Below the pieces are notes generated by a model that had not been told where the DNA came from, searched no databases, and worked only from the letters and a program-made list of their open reading frames with translations. From Lactobacillus sp. 0.1XD8-4 (GTDB lineage: Bacteria; Bacillota; Bacilli; Lactobacillales; Lactobacillaceae), in NCBI RefSeq assembly GCF_009663775.1, contig NZ_RDBR01000016.1:1-41537 (forward strand): 41,537 nucleotides of DNA, in the 5' to 3' direction. Below, in pieces: positions 2,835 through 37,250 of the stretch (position 1 is its first letter; every line of letters begins with the position of its first letter). A program made the translations under genes and the position numbers.

Positions 2835-3485
2835 ATGATAAAAGTTGGAATAATTGGTGCATCTGGAATGGCTGGTAGTGCAATCTATAAATTAGCAACC
2901 ACCAAGCCTGAATTAGATGTAACGGGCATCGTGCGTCATGAAAATAAAGCCCGTGAGATTCTTGGTGATGATGCCAAATTATTAAGTGGTGATATTTTTG
3001 CCTTAAATGATAGTTTATTATCGCGTTTTGATGTCATTGTTGATGCGTATGGAACCAGTCCCGAAAATGCTGACCGTCAAACCCGTTTGGCCGAAAAATT
3101 GGTTAGTCTAGCACGTAAAAATAGGATAAGATTAATCTTTATCTTAGGAGCTGGCAGCCTCAAAACTGGGGCTGATGAACATTTATTTGTTGAAGATATT
3201 GCTAAAATTCCTGGTTCTGAAAAATGGATTAATACACCGCGACAACAGTTAAAGGAGCTGCAATACCTCGAAACGATTACGGATATTGACTGGGTTGGAA
3301 TCTCGCCATCAGCAACATTTGAAGCGGGACCAGCAACTGGTTATATCGTGGGTAAAGATAAACTATTATTTAATGAACAAAAAGAATCAAAAGTTTCAAC
3401 CGGAACAGTTGCTGAAGTAGTGGTAAGCGAGATTTTAGCACCTCGTCATCACCGCGAACGGATTACTGTTGTTAATGAAGAATAA
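2835..3485 (+). CDS. NAD(P)-binding (atypical SDR, NAD(P)H-binding family) protein
   Basis: 216 residues with the N-terminal Rossmann motif GIIGASGMAGSAI at about residues 5-17, as in atypical short-chain dehydrogenases of the NAD(P)H-binding or NmrA-like group. Further signs are an Asp-containing second strand (LLSGDIFAL), the DVIVDAYG strand, and a central LIFILGAGSL segment. No YxxxK catalytic pair is obvious, so it may act as a sensor or a flavin/NADPH-linked reductase. The ribosome site is AAGGAG, spaced 9 from the ATG. It is monocistronic, ending at the bidirectional hairpin at 3593. Confidence 0.85.
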   Translation: MIKVGIIGASGMAGSAIYKLATTKPELDVTGIVRHENKAREILGDDAKLLSGDIFALNDSLLSRFDVIVDAYGTSPENADRQTRLAEKLVSLARKNRIRLIFILGAGSLKTGADEHLFVEDIAKIPGSEKWINTPRQQLKELQYLETITDIDWVGISPSATFEAGPATGYIVGKDKLLFNEQKESKVSTGTVAEVVVSEILAPRHHRERITVVNEE

Positions 3486-3592
3486 GAAATAGTATGATGC
3501 TGCAATAGCAATGTTGTACCGTATTCATATAAAAATAGTGGAGGTGTGACAAAGGTCATTTATGACTTCGTCTTCACGTCCCCACAAGCACA

Positions 3593-3639
3593 ACGAGGCT
3601 CTAGTATTCGGAAAAACCGAACGCTAGAGCCTCGTTTTT
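3593..3639. terminator. Bidirectional terminator between converging genes
   Basis: ACGAGGCTCTAG is paired with CTAGAGCCTCGT, with an inner ATTCGG/CCGAAC stem and a run of T on the plus side (A-rich on the other). It separates the NAD(P)-binding gene (+) from the cytochrome b5-like gene (-). Its two-part stem closely resembles the hairpin at 26155. Confidence 0.85.
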
Positions 3640-5384: not shown

Positions 5385-5406
5385 TTGACTCTCCTTAATT
5401 TTTAAT

Positions 5407-5703
5407 AAAAAAACACCAACTAGATCAGCGGTGATTACACAATCTAGTTGGTGGGTTTGGTAGTATAAAATGATGGAAGAACTCTACCCTCTACTAGATT
5501 GGTGCACCTAGCAAAGGACTCCTTAAAAACAACCTTGCTTAGGTACGAACACCGTTGCCCGTACCTATTGAGTACAGACATTTATGCGCGATAAGCATAG
5601 TTGTTATAGTACTTAGTTGAATTTAATGAGTGTGTATTCATAACTGTCGTTCCTTCCCGTTTGATGTTGTAATTATTAAAACATTCTCATTTTAGTTTGT
5701 CAA
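5407..5703 (-). promoter_or_regulatory. Leader-peptide attenuator controlling the nhaC-family gene
   Basis: Read on the minus strand. The promoter is TTGACA (5703-5698), a 17-base spacer and TTTAAT (5680-5675). Then come a Tyr-rich 19-codon ORF (5641-5582), a hairpin AGGTACG/CGTACCT, and arm AAGCAAGGTTGTT (5541-5529). That arm can pair with codon region AACAACTATGCTT (5605-5593), 12 of 13 positions counting one G-U, or through AGCAAGG with CCTTTGCT downstream. CAATCTAGT (5501-5493) can pair with ACTAGATTG (5448-5440), disrupting the terminator CACCAACTAGAT/ATCTAGTTGGTG plus seven T. No T-box, lysine or SAM riboswitch core was found. The stalling mechanism is inferred. Confidence 0.7.
5582..5641 (-). 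CDS. Tyr-rich leader peptide MNTHSLNSTKYYNNYAYRA
   Basis: 19 residues. The ATG lies 9 bases after AAGGA in the 5' leader of the nhaC-family gene. Tyr codons are at 11, 12, 15 and 17 (TAC TAT .. .. TAT .. TAT): four of the last nine residues. The Tyr-codon segment overlaps the RNA arm that can pair with AAGCAAGGTTGTT downstream, so a ribosome stalled for lack of Tyr-tRNA would mask that arm. This is the logic of trp/his-type attenuation, here apparently for tyrosine. Confidence 0.7.
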   Translation of the reverse strand: MNTHSLNSTKYYNNYAYRA

Positions 5704-5722
5704 TCTTTAATTTAAATAAAAA

Positions 5723-6748
5723 TTAAAATTCCCCTGCGACATCTTGGTCAGAGAATGAATGGGGATCGGGAACAAAGGCGATATCAGTGTCGATGATACC
5801 AAATTTTTCCCGAAGAATATTTTCGATGTGTTCCGATAGTTGAAAACTTTGCAAAATTGTCATTTTAGCATTAACCATAACCGAAGCATCGAGAGTCACT
5901 ACATTGCCGTTGTAGTGAGCTTTTAATTCGACTACTTTAATAACAGGTTTAACCTGCATAATTGCCTGACGGTATTCTTGTTCCGCCTGAGGATCAAAAT
6001 AGTCCGTTAAATTAAGGCTGCTATCAAAGAAAATCTTAAGTCCAGAATATAAGATAAAAAAGCCAACGACAATACTAGTTGCGCCATCGAGCCATCGGAT
6101 ATCGAATAGGAGCGCTCCGCCAATAGAAATTAGAGTTCCAATGCTGGTAAAAGCGTCACTAAGACTATCTTGGGCCGAGGCGAGCAGTGCAGCATTTTTT
6201 AACTTAAGACCAGTTTGGCGGTTCATGTACCAGACAACAAGCATAATGATAGAGGCAATTCCCGCCCCAACGAGGGCAATTGGCTGGGGAACAACTCGGC
6301 TGGCAGGGTTAAGAAGCCCCTTAATCCCGTCTACAATAACGCTAAGAGCAATTGCTACCATTACGACGGCGGTTACTAATGAAAAAATAGTTTCATACCG
6401 CCAGCGAACAAACTGAACCCGTTGGTCTGATCCCATATGTGCTTGGTAGTTTCCCGCCGGTAATTTAGCACCGATAATATCATCATCGTCAATATCTTGT
6501 GCAATATGCAGTCCCATCATTAATAAGAAAGTTGAAATAATTCCTGAAAGATTGTTAAAAGCATCGGCACGTAAAGTTTGCGACATACTCATTTCAGCTA
6601 ACCAATACTCAATAACTGAGATGAGAACGTAAGCAACAAGGTTATAGATTAAATGGTGTTGCGAAGCACGAATTTTCGCCAGTTCTTTGGCTTGGGTGTG
6701 TTCCCAATTATTCATTTCGGCGGTTGCATGTTTCTTAAATTTAGTCAT
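5723..6748 (-). CDS. Cation diffusion facilitator (CDF) metal exporter
   Basis: 341 residues. The N-terminal half carries six membrane segments with the CDF metal site in two helices: RADAFNNLSGIIST (about residue 61) and AQDSLSDAFTSIG (about residue 190). A cytoplasmic ferredoxin-like domain follows (VKVVELKAHYNGNVVTLDASV...), ending near HSFSDQDV. The family exports divalent cations (Zn, Mn, Fe, Co) by H+ antiport. The Asn-Asn in the first motif and the Ser-Asp arrangement in the second are more like Mn/Fe-type members than zinc YiiP, but specificity cannot be fixed by eye. It is transcribed toward the nhaC leader, whose promoter begins about 20 bases past its stop. Confidence 0.88.
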   Translation of the reverse strand: MTKFKKHATAEMNNWEHTQAKELAKIRASQHHLIYNLVAYVLISVIEYWLAEMSMSQTLRADAFNNLSGIISTFLLMMGLHIAQDIDDDDIIGAKLPAGNYQAHMGSDQRVQFVRWRYETIFSLVTAVVMVAIALSVIVDGIKGLLNPASRVVPQPIALVGAGIASIIMLVVWYMNRQTGLKLKNAALLASAQDSLSDAFTSIGTLISIGGALLFDIRWLDGATSIVVGFFILYSGLKIFFDSSLNLTDYFDPQAEQEYRQAIMQVKPVIKVVELKAHYNGNVVTLDASVMVNAKMTILQSFQLSEHIENILREKFGIIDTDIAFVPDPHSFSDQDVAGEF

Positions 6749-36978: not shown

Positions 36979-37250
36979 CAAAAAAGCACTCATCCCTTAA
37001 TTAAAGGACGAGTGCTCCGCGTTACCACCTTTATTCGCTAGATCCTCACAGATCCAGCCTCAGTAGGTTACTCTAATAAAATAATTAGAATTACCTAGCA
37101 CTAGTAACGTGTGCTAACCCGTTATCGACTAACAATCATCGATACCATTCCAAGCCCATCTTCAGTACCTAGGCTTACTCCTTTACACCACCCAGAAGCT
37201 CTCTGAAAAGTTTCAGTACTTACTCTGCTTTTCGATATGTTTTAACGTTC
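36979..37250 (-). promoter_or_regulatory. Methionine T-box riboswitch with terminator
   Basis: On the minus strand: stem I with AGAGAGCTTCTGGGTGGTG, specifier region GGAATGGT (ATG codon 37148-37146, Met), T-box AAAGGTGGTAACGCGGAGCA (37034-37014), then terminator AGCACTCGTCCTTT/AAGGGATGAGTGCT plus a T run (37016-36979). Uncharged tRNA-Met should favour the antiterminator and switch on metQNI and the M20 peptidase. Confidence 0.93.

Follow-up and report, generated by a model that had tools for sequence, protein, structure and literature searches.

A tyrosine-codon leader upstream of an NhaC-family transporter gene probably belongs to a family of attenuators that spans Lactobacillales and exchanges its sensing codons

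What decides whether RNA polymerase enters the NhaC-family transporter gene on the minus strand of contig NZ_RDBR01000016.1 of Lactobacillus sp. 0.1XD8-4, and which signal is read by the RNA that precedes it? In the available text of two earlier papers, amino-acid attenuation in Firmicutes is described mostly in terms of T-boxes, with leader peptides as the exception (PMC2965389, PMC9413887). Here, we analyzed the leader in the window (the whole 41,537-nt stretch of DNA) together with its relatives and conclude that it very likely acts by ribosome-mediated transcription attenuation, sensing charged Tyr-tRNA and controlling a transporter that probably carries tyrosine. The window leader appears to be one member of an attenuator family that extends across Lactobacillales and in which the sensing codons are interchangeable. 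The mechanism is classical; what seems new, judged by the matches listed in the open-licence literature, is the family, the exchangeable codons, and the existence of a T-box counterpart.

Features of the leader and its neighbors in the window, listed in the direction of transcription of the leader
Feature	Position	Strand	Description
Cation-efflux gene (PF01545)	5723-6748		Upstream neighbor; ends at 5723, just 5' of the promoter
Sigma-70-type promoter, TTGACA-17-TTTAAT	5675-5703	(-)	TTGACA 5703-5698, 17-nt spacer, TTTAAT 5680-5675; direct reading
Shine-Dalgarno sequence AAGGA of the leader peptide	5651-5655	(-)	Direct reading
Leader peptide ORF, 19 codons	5582-5641	(-)	MNTHSLNSTKYYNNYAYRA, then stop; Tyr at codons 11, 12, 15, and 17
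Element 1a (codons 4-7)	5623-5630	(-)	Putative OFF fold: 7/8 pairs with 5526-5519
Element 1b (codons 13-17, includes Tyr15)	5593-5605	(-)	12/13 pairs with 5540-5528
Segment a	5572-5580	(-)	Directly 3' of the stop codon; 9/9 pairs with segment b
Segment b	5556-5565	(-)	Partner is a or c
Segment c	5542-5550	(-)	b:c hairpin (9/9) in the putative OFF fold
Element 2	5519-5540	(-)	OFF, pairs with 1a/1b; ON, its 5' part and c pair with element 3 (putative folds)
Element 3 (CCTTTGCTAGGTGC)	5504-5517	(-)	Pairs with c+2 (ON) or element 4 (OFF)
Element 4	5488-5501	(-)	Antiterminator arm 5501-5493; 5497-5488 pairs with element 3 (3:4, 10/10)
Intrinsic terminator	5407-5453	(-)	Arms 5453-5442 and 5425-5414, 12/12 pairs (5:6), then T tract 5413-5407 (seven T)
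NhaC-family (PF03553) transporter gene, 474 aa	3960-5384	(-)	Shine-Dalgarno sequence AAGGAG 5396-5391

The product of the NhaC-family gene scores 356 bits against TIGR00931, under the cut-off of 370, and by analogy with its homologs is probably a tyrosine-related, tyrosine-carrying transporter; its closest named relatives are those of L. rudii (96%) and L. caviae (95%). A first-pass annotation, made from the letters alone, had described a promoter, a ribosome site, and a 19-codon ORF with four Tyr codons in front of this gene, and all of these can be read directly on the minus strand. It had also paired the Tyr-codon region with a downstream arm at 12 of 13 positions. This pairing exists (5605-5593 with 5540-5528), but one base away from the register then proposed, 5541-5529, which yields only 5/13 pairs, and the region involved spans codons 13 to 17, with Tyr15 and the start of Tyr17, while Tyr11 and Tyr12 lie outside it. 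The proposed competition between an antiterminator arm and a U-tract terminator stood unchanged: the arm at 5501-5493 (CAATCTAGT) pairs at 9/9 positions with 5448-5440, within the 5' side of the terminator (4:5). Segments a, b, and c and arm 1a are additions to that description, a:b and b:c being alternative 9-bp hairpins that follow the leader stop codon. The window leader folds with a z score of -5.8, and 0/200 shuffled sequences were equally stable.

A block resembling the window promoter stands 5' of the leader in congeners, and the spacer between the -35 and -10 boxes, AAAATGAGAATG (window 5675-5710, minus strand), is nearly identical before many leaders of the genus. Such sameness exceeds what a plain promoter needs, and the block may include a protein site. 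An operator reading of the block was tried and set aside, since the pattern, with up to three mismatches allowed, has a single match in its own genome.

The arrangement suggests the following sequence of events. When Tyr-tRNA is ample, the ribosome would complete the 19-codon peptide and arrive at the stop codon, so placed that b:c could form; upon its release, 1a and 1b would re-pair with element 2, element 3 would hold element 4, and arms 5 and 6 would be left to pair, stopping transcription. When Tyr-tRNA is scarce, the ribosome would stall at Tyr11/12, covering 1a and 1b, and a:b could form; c+2 would then pair with element 3, element 4 would be set free, 4:5 would form, and RNA polymerase would enter nhaC. 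The scheme predicts that tyrosine regulates the gene in the cell and that the transporter carries this amino acid.

Masked folding, an equilibrium model without timing in which the sequence up to the front edge of the ribosome is masked, yields a flip between folds on stalling in many of the leaders but not in every one. In the window, the modeled probability of 4:5 is 0.03 for free RNA and 0.98 to 0.99 with Tyr11 or Tyr12 in the A site; with the ribosome at the stop codon it is 0.93, or 0.42 to 0.43 for a transcript ending at element 5. Averaged over 27 leaders of the genus, this probability is 0.27 for ribosome-free RNA, 0.66 when either of the first two aromatic codons occupies the A site, and 0.42 at the stop codon, a trend that is the same across three footprints and two transcript ends. 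Stalling raises it above 0.5 in 19/27 leaders and fails to do so in 8/27, and nine of the 19 responsive leaders drop below 0.5 at the stop codon; across six settings, 15 to 21 of the 27 exceed 0.5 on stalling and 9 to 14 of those drop at the stop. Seven of the 27 favor 4:5 (>0.5) even without a ribosome, five of these having targets other than NhaC. In two leaders (L008 and L012), NhaC starts about 630 and 440 nt past the leader ATG, compared with about 255 nt as a rule, and neither flips in the model.

If the helices matter, they should be maintained by compensatory changes in relatives, as the first-pass annotation had suggested checking, and most of them are. Of 56 relatives searched by BLASTN, 21, the genome of the window among them, have a match to the leader at E < 1e-5. 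We read 28 genus leaders, paralogous copies included, which were initially chosen by a Shine-Dalgarno sequence plus YY or aromatic content, and aligned 27 of them (L020, which misaligned, was excluded here as well as in the covariation and folding analyses). RNAalifold returned for these 27 a single consensus fold consisting of 1a:2, 1b:2, b:c, and 3:4, with two-sided changes at 21/40 pairs. Helices 1:2, b:c, 3:4, 4:5, and 5:6 all covary. The antiterminator 4:5 is paired in 94.7% of cells and shows two-sided changes at 5/9 pairs (0/500 shuffles as high); the terminator 5:6 does so at 7/12 pairs, reached by 17/500 shuffles, and b:c at 4/10, reached by 7/500. Covariation of a:b is slight: two-sided changes at 3/9 pairs were reached by 87/500 shuffles, and the count by cells, 7, by 0/500. 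Covariation support for c+2:3 was sought in the same 27 leaders and none was found, the pairing being possible and mostly invariant. Covariation thus backs a terminator and an antiterminator that exclude one another (4:5 versus 3:4 and 5:6).

The same scaffold recurs far outside the genus. A covariance model built from the genus leaders (R1) matches in 39/50 genus genomes and, across the family, in 121/397 genomes and 21/40 genera; a second model (R2) matches in 178/395 genomes and 47/80 genera of the order and in 2/299 genomes across the phylum, both of which belong to the order. Leaders were taken from a subset of these matches (60 family match sites outside the genus and 40 order match sites). 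In 91 leaders, 90.6% of cells are paired and two-sided changes occur at 38/40 pairs; these counts lean toward the structure because the alignment was fitted to it, and the argument is carried by the controls, in which a covariation score of 0.443 compares with 0.236 for shuffled and at most 0.091 for slid alignments. Among 36 leaders of other families (aligned as 37 rows, the extra row being a weak second match in L163 at 24.7 bits, with L191 to L194 left out), 89.0% of cells are paired and 25/40 pairs show two-sided changes, compared with a shuffled mean of 20.8 and 1/500 shuffles as high.

A structure conserved this strongly would also suit a riboswitch with tyrosine or an aromatic metabolite as its direct ligand, which is how PMC4448216, in its available text, reads apparent streptococcal relatives, classing the 5' untranslated regions (UTRs) of gbs1262 and gbs2033 as new riboswitches that respond to aromatic amino acids or their precursors. 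We regard this reading as very improbable, in view of the behavior of the ORF. No known RNA, T-box (RF00230) included, was found in the leader by Rfam either at gathering score or at E ≤ 10; a hit to a known riboswitch could have overturned the first-pass reading of an attenuator. The entries that do appear on the E ≤ 10 list (sau-41, GcvB, snoZ163, and Esr41) lie far below their gathering scores and were taken as chance. The leader stop codon occupies the same alignment column in 27/27 aligned genus leaders. Among gap runs in the ORF, 272/274 are multiples of 3, as are 44/506 in the stretch from the stop codon to hairpin b, figures that are pairwise over 27 sequences and hence do not count independent events. 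A Shine-Dalgarno-like 4-mer precedes the ORF in 27/27 NhaC leaders and 88/95 family and order leaders, with the start taken as the nearest ATG regardless of any Shine-Dalgarno sequence, and at 253/2360 random positions. Aromatic residues concentrate in one frame, making up 688/2304 residues in the leader frame and 152/2304 and 240/2304 in the other two for 129 leaders, and 534/1709, 123/1709, and 186/1709 for 96 leaders chosen without an aromatic filter, although the covariance models behind the latter still contain Tyr codons. Since the models contain the start and the Tyr codons, the presence of an ORF in their matches is partly built in. An excess of third-position substitutions was sought in the ORF and is absent (0.338, 0.428, and 0.397 for the three positions), so it seems that mainly the aromatic codons are selected while the rest of the peptide drifts. 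Conservation of the frame predicts that the ORF is translated. Trp codons replace, by eye, the Tyr or Phe codons of other leaders, and on the same scaffold the codons become Ile/Leu before LivJ-type and PALP genes. An aptamer would need neither the ORF, nor its frame, nor exchanged codons, and the riboswitch reading is disfavored for this reason.

Under ribosome-mediated attenuation, the codons should match the gene downstream, and the sensing codons do track the target: Tyr for NhaC, Phe and Tyr for major facilitator superfamily (MFS) and shikimate genes, and Ile/Leu in three cases of branched-chain amino-acid type. We classified 129 leaders (L093 and L109, whose peptides are identical to those of L092 and L108, and L100 and L192, which lack a convincing leader ORF, were omitted) by a motif script applied to the first downstream ORF; 10/129 fell under "other," and individual rows may be in the wrong class. 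The Tyr codons are kept alongside the stems, where their loss would have refuted the first-pass reading: YY occurs in 27/27 NhaC leaders of named genomes, with L224 carrying it near the end and FY at the usual position, and 3/27 have only two Tyr. A second set of NhaC leaders (n = 21) holds 83 Tyr, 6 Phe, and 0 Trp, compared with 172 Tyr, 114 Phe, and 13 Trp for MFS-transporter leaders (n = 49); the difference in Tyr:Phe, 83:6 versus 172:114, gives a Fisher p of 3e-10, computed on residues that are not independent in related leaders. Leaders before TrpX-type ABC binding proteins (PF04392; n = 20) contain 46 Tyr and 53 Phe, and those before amino-acid permeases (APC, n = 2) and PheA-like genes (n = 2) jointly contain 4 Tyr and 15 Phe. 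Further classes are shikimate dehydrogenase (9), chorismate mutase (7), shikimate kinase (1), and family-3 type amino-acid binding protein (6). The two leaders before LivJ-type binding proteins, L183 and L186 (..VLLLLSLIIR and ..AIIISIIIR), have Ile, Leu, or Val at 16/35 residues; together with L167 (..NIISIIR), one of the ten sorted as "other," which precedes the gene of a PALP-family enzyme, they are apparent branched-chain amino-acid versions of the scaffold.

The genes downstream, as annotated, appear to fit the amino acid encoded, be they of shikimate, chorismate-mutase, amino-acid transport, or branched-chain type. Pfam backs the class names of the scanned examples, PheA excepted: neither L033 nor L138 has a Pfam match there, L033 also lacks an NCBIfam match, and the name "PheA-like" is our assumption from the N-terminal motif HTLGP. 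The MFS transporter is identified by PF07690 alone, its NCBIfam matches falling far under the cut-off. The genome of the window has a second copy of the element before an MFS transporter (C56:18248-18396, minus strand; MTSLSLTAKNYYFGFAYFM). In two other leaders, L185 (..MVFFSSNFR) and L189 (..AVFFNSNFR), Phe pairs occur with Asn near the end; the script places L185 before a TrpX-type gene, and L189 precedes an unsorted gene.

An arrest peptide such as TnaC halts the ribosome at the stop codon when a free small molecule is present. The leader peptide might act likewise, its nascent chain (for example, ..YFSYFR) stalling the ribosome at the stop codon on a free small molecule, and many leaders in the other families of the order do end alike (F/Y-S/G-Y-F-R-stop). 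We judge this very improbable, given that the C termini differ in Lactobacillaceae (YRA, YSS, YFM, AWFK), that the number and kind of aromatic codons track the target gene, and that R-stop persists where the residues before it turn to Ile/Leu (..SLIIR, ..SIIIR). With R-stop kept despite this exchange, RNA pairing may be what holds it. A Tyr-rich ORF and hairpins that are merely incidental, with the terminator insulating nhaC from the cation-efflux gene that ends directly before the promoter, would be a still more doubtful account: a consensus-like promoter lies between that gene and the terminator, the mutually exclusive helices covary, and the element recurs across the order before amino-acid genes. 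That the leader is a T-box diverged past recognition hardly deserves credence, even though apparently Tyr-specific T-boxes precede NhaC homologs elsewhere in Limosilactobacillus and in Ligilactobacillus, because the leader has no T-box match even at E ≤ 10 and because the leader and T-box NhaC genes fall into two separate clades.

The putative leader-peptide attenuator has a counterpart on the same gene family. We scanned 74 NhaC loci in named genomes, a set limited to NhaC genes with either of two exact peptide patterns; R2 matches 27 of them, all in Limosilactobacillus or uncultured Lactobacillaceae. In 40 of the 74 loci, Rfam at gathering score finds no T-box upstream of NhaC (the T-box of L240, at 3437-3632, is downstream). 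At a relaxed threshold, 12 loci yielded five upstream T-boxes with 54.7 to 78.9 bits (gathering score, 93), in Ligilactobacillus salivarius, L. ingluviei, L. alvi, Ca. L. faecipullorum, and an uncultured Limosilactobacillus, and a T-box core pattern occurs upstream in 8/74 loci, namely these five and three Bacillaceae. The specifier of a T-box stands after GAA. All five NhaC T-boxes have GAATTAC, and hence an apparent UAC Tyr specifier, under a search pattern that admitted Tyr codons only; for four of the five, Rfam alignments place the same bases at the specifier site. In a tree of NhaC proteins (46 rows, midpoint root), 28 leader genes, the window gene included (100/96), are sister to the five T-box genes (100/99) within a 100/100 group, and 13 rows have neither label. 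The Tyr specificity put forward by the first-pass annotation gains from this sister clade. Both clades are represented in one genus, whose NhaC genes thus seem to have two ways of sensing Tyr. The window itself contains a T-box leader (37001-37244, minus strand; 105.6 bits) before a MetQ/MetN-like ABC transporter (PF03180; ABC ATPase with NIL domain), where the base run GAATGGTATC suggests an AUG (Met) specifier, and with this T-box and the leader peptide on one contig, the contig seems to use both types of device.

Some members of the family appear to have been filed under other names. According to the available text of PMC4448216, the gbs1262 and gbs2033 5'UTR elements of S. agalactiae precede paralogous ABC-transporter operons and are conserved in Lactobacillales, the gbs2033 element also precedes the aroFBC-tyrA operon of E. 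faecium, and in RNA-seq a single start site gives rise to both a short RNA and a long transcript. That paper terms them riboswitches; the phrase "leader peptide" is absent from its main text. In one large genus among our order-level matches (g4, by guess streptococcus-like), TrpX-type ABC binding proteins lie downstream, and by description, gene context, and these matches, the two elements are apparent relatives of the leader family. Rfam RF02863 (Enterococcus sRNA 2410) gives gathering-score matches that overlap the leader in 5/20 order loci (L166, L173, L174, L180, and L181, enterococcal-type relatives) and has no match in the window or in 33 family genomes (its own and 32 of the same genus). 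In PMC5593968, as available, sRNA_2410 is two transcripts on Northern blots and is described as an sRNA, whereas we read the corresponding leader otherwise, as encoding a peptide. Four of the RF02863-matched loci stand before shikimate dehydrogenase or TrpX-type genes, and the sRNA label may therefore merit revision.

Taken as a whole, we consider it likely that one homologous, modular leader scaffold in Lactobacillales has had its codons reprogrammed repeatedly (Tyr; Phe/Tyr/Trp; Ile/Leu), that it partly does the work of T-boxes and, within one genus, has traded places with a Tyr T-box on a single gene family, and that the S. agalactiae "aromatic riboswitches" and the enterococcal sRNA_2410 both belong to it, so that the former would be no aptamer and the latter no trans-acting RNA. 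Among the matches listed in the open-licence literature, we recognized no description of a leader-peptide system of this kind in Lactobacillales. If this is correct, a scaffold present in 178/395 sampled genomes of the order changes the T-box-centered picture for lactic acid bacteria, elements seemingly filed as riboswitches and sRNA receive a new explanation, the codons hint at the substrates of unnamed transporters (MFS family and NhaC), and the exchange of T-box and leader inside one genus offers a natural test case for the evolution of switches.

In the enterobacterial trp, phe, and his attenuators, a stalled ribosome frees an antiterminator. The window leader would share their logic and differs in sequence and in having more competing segments (1a/1b, a, b, c, 2, 3, 4, 5, and 6). 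Closer in taxonomy are the Firmicutes His leader peptides with codon runs, which PMC2965389 sees as replacing T-boxes; as described in the available text of PMC2965389 and PMC9413887, these concern histidine, occur in bacilli, Erysipelotrichales, and Peptostreptococcaceae, and are not said to share an RNA scaffold in which codons are swapped. The uORFC-13-1 motif of Acholeplasma aroF, for which a Phe-codon uORF before the terminator of an aromatic gene has been proposed, is alike by description and is confined to Acholeplasma and environmental sequences, with 24 representatives, in the available text of PMC8632094. The Tyr T-box sits on NhaC genes of several Firmicutes and has the same gene family and amino acid as the window leader (PMC2494555, available text). 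A T-box binds tRNA directly, without a leader peptide, and here an apparently Tyr-specific one is found on the sister NhaC clade.
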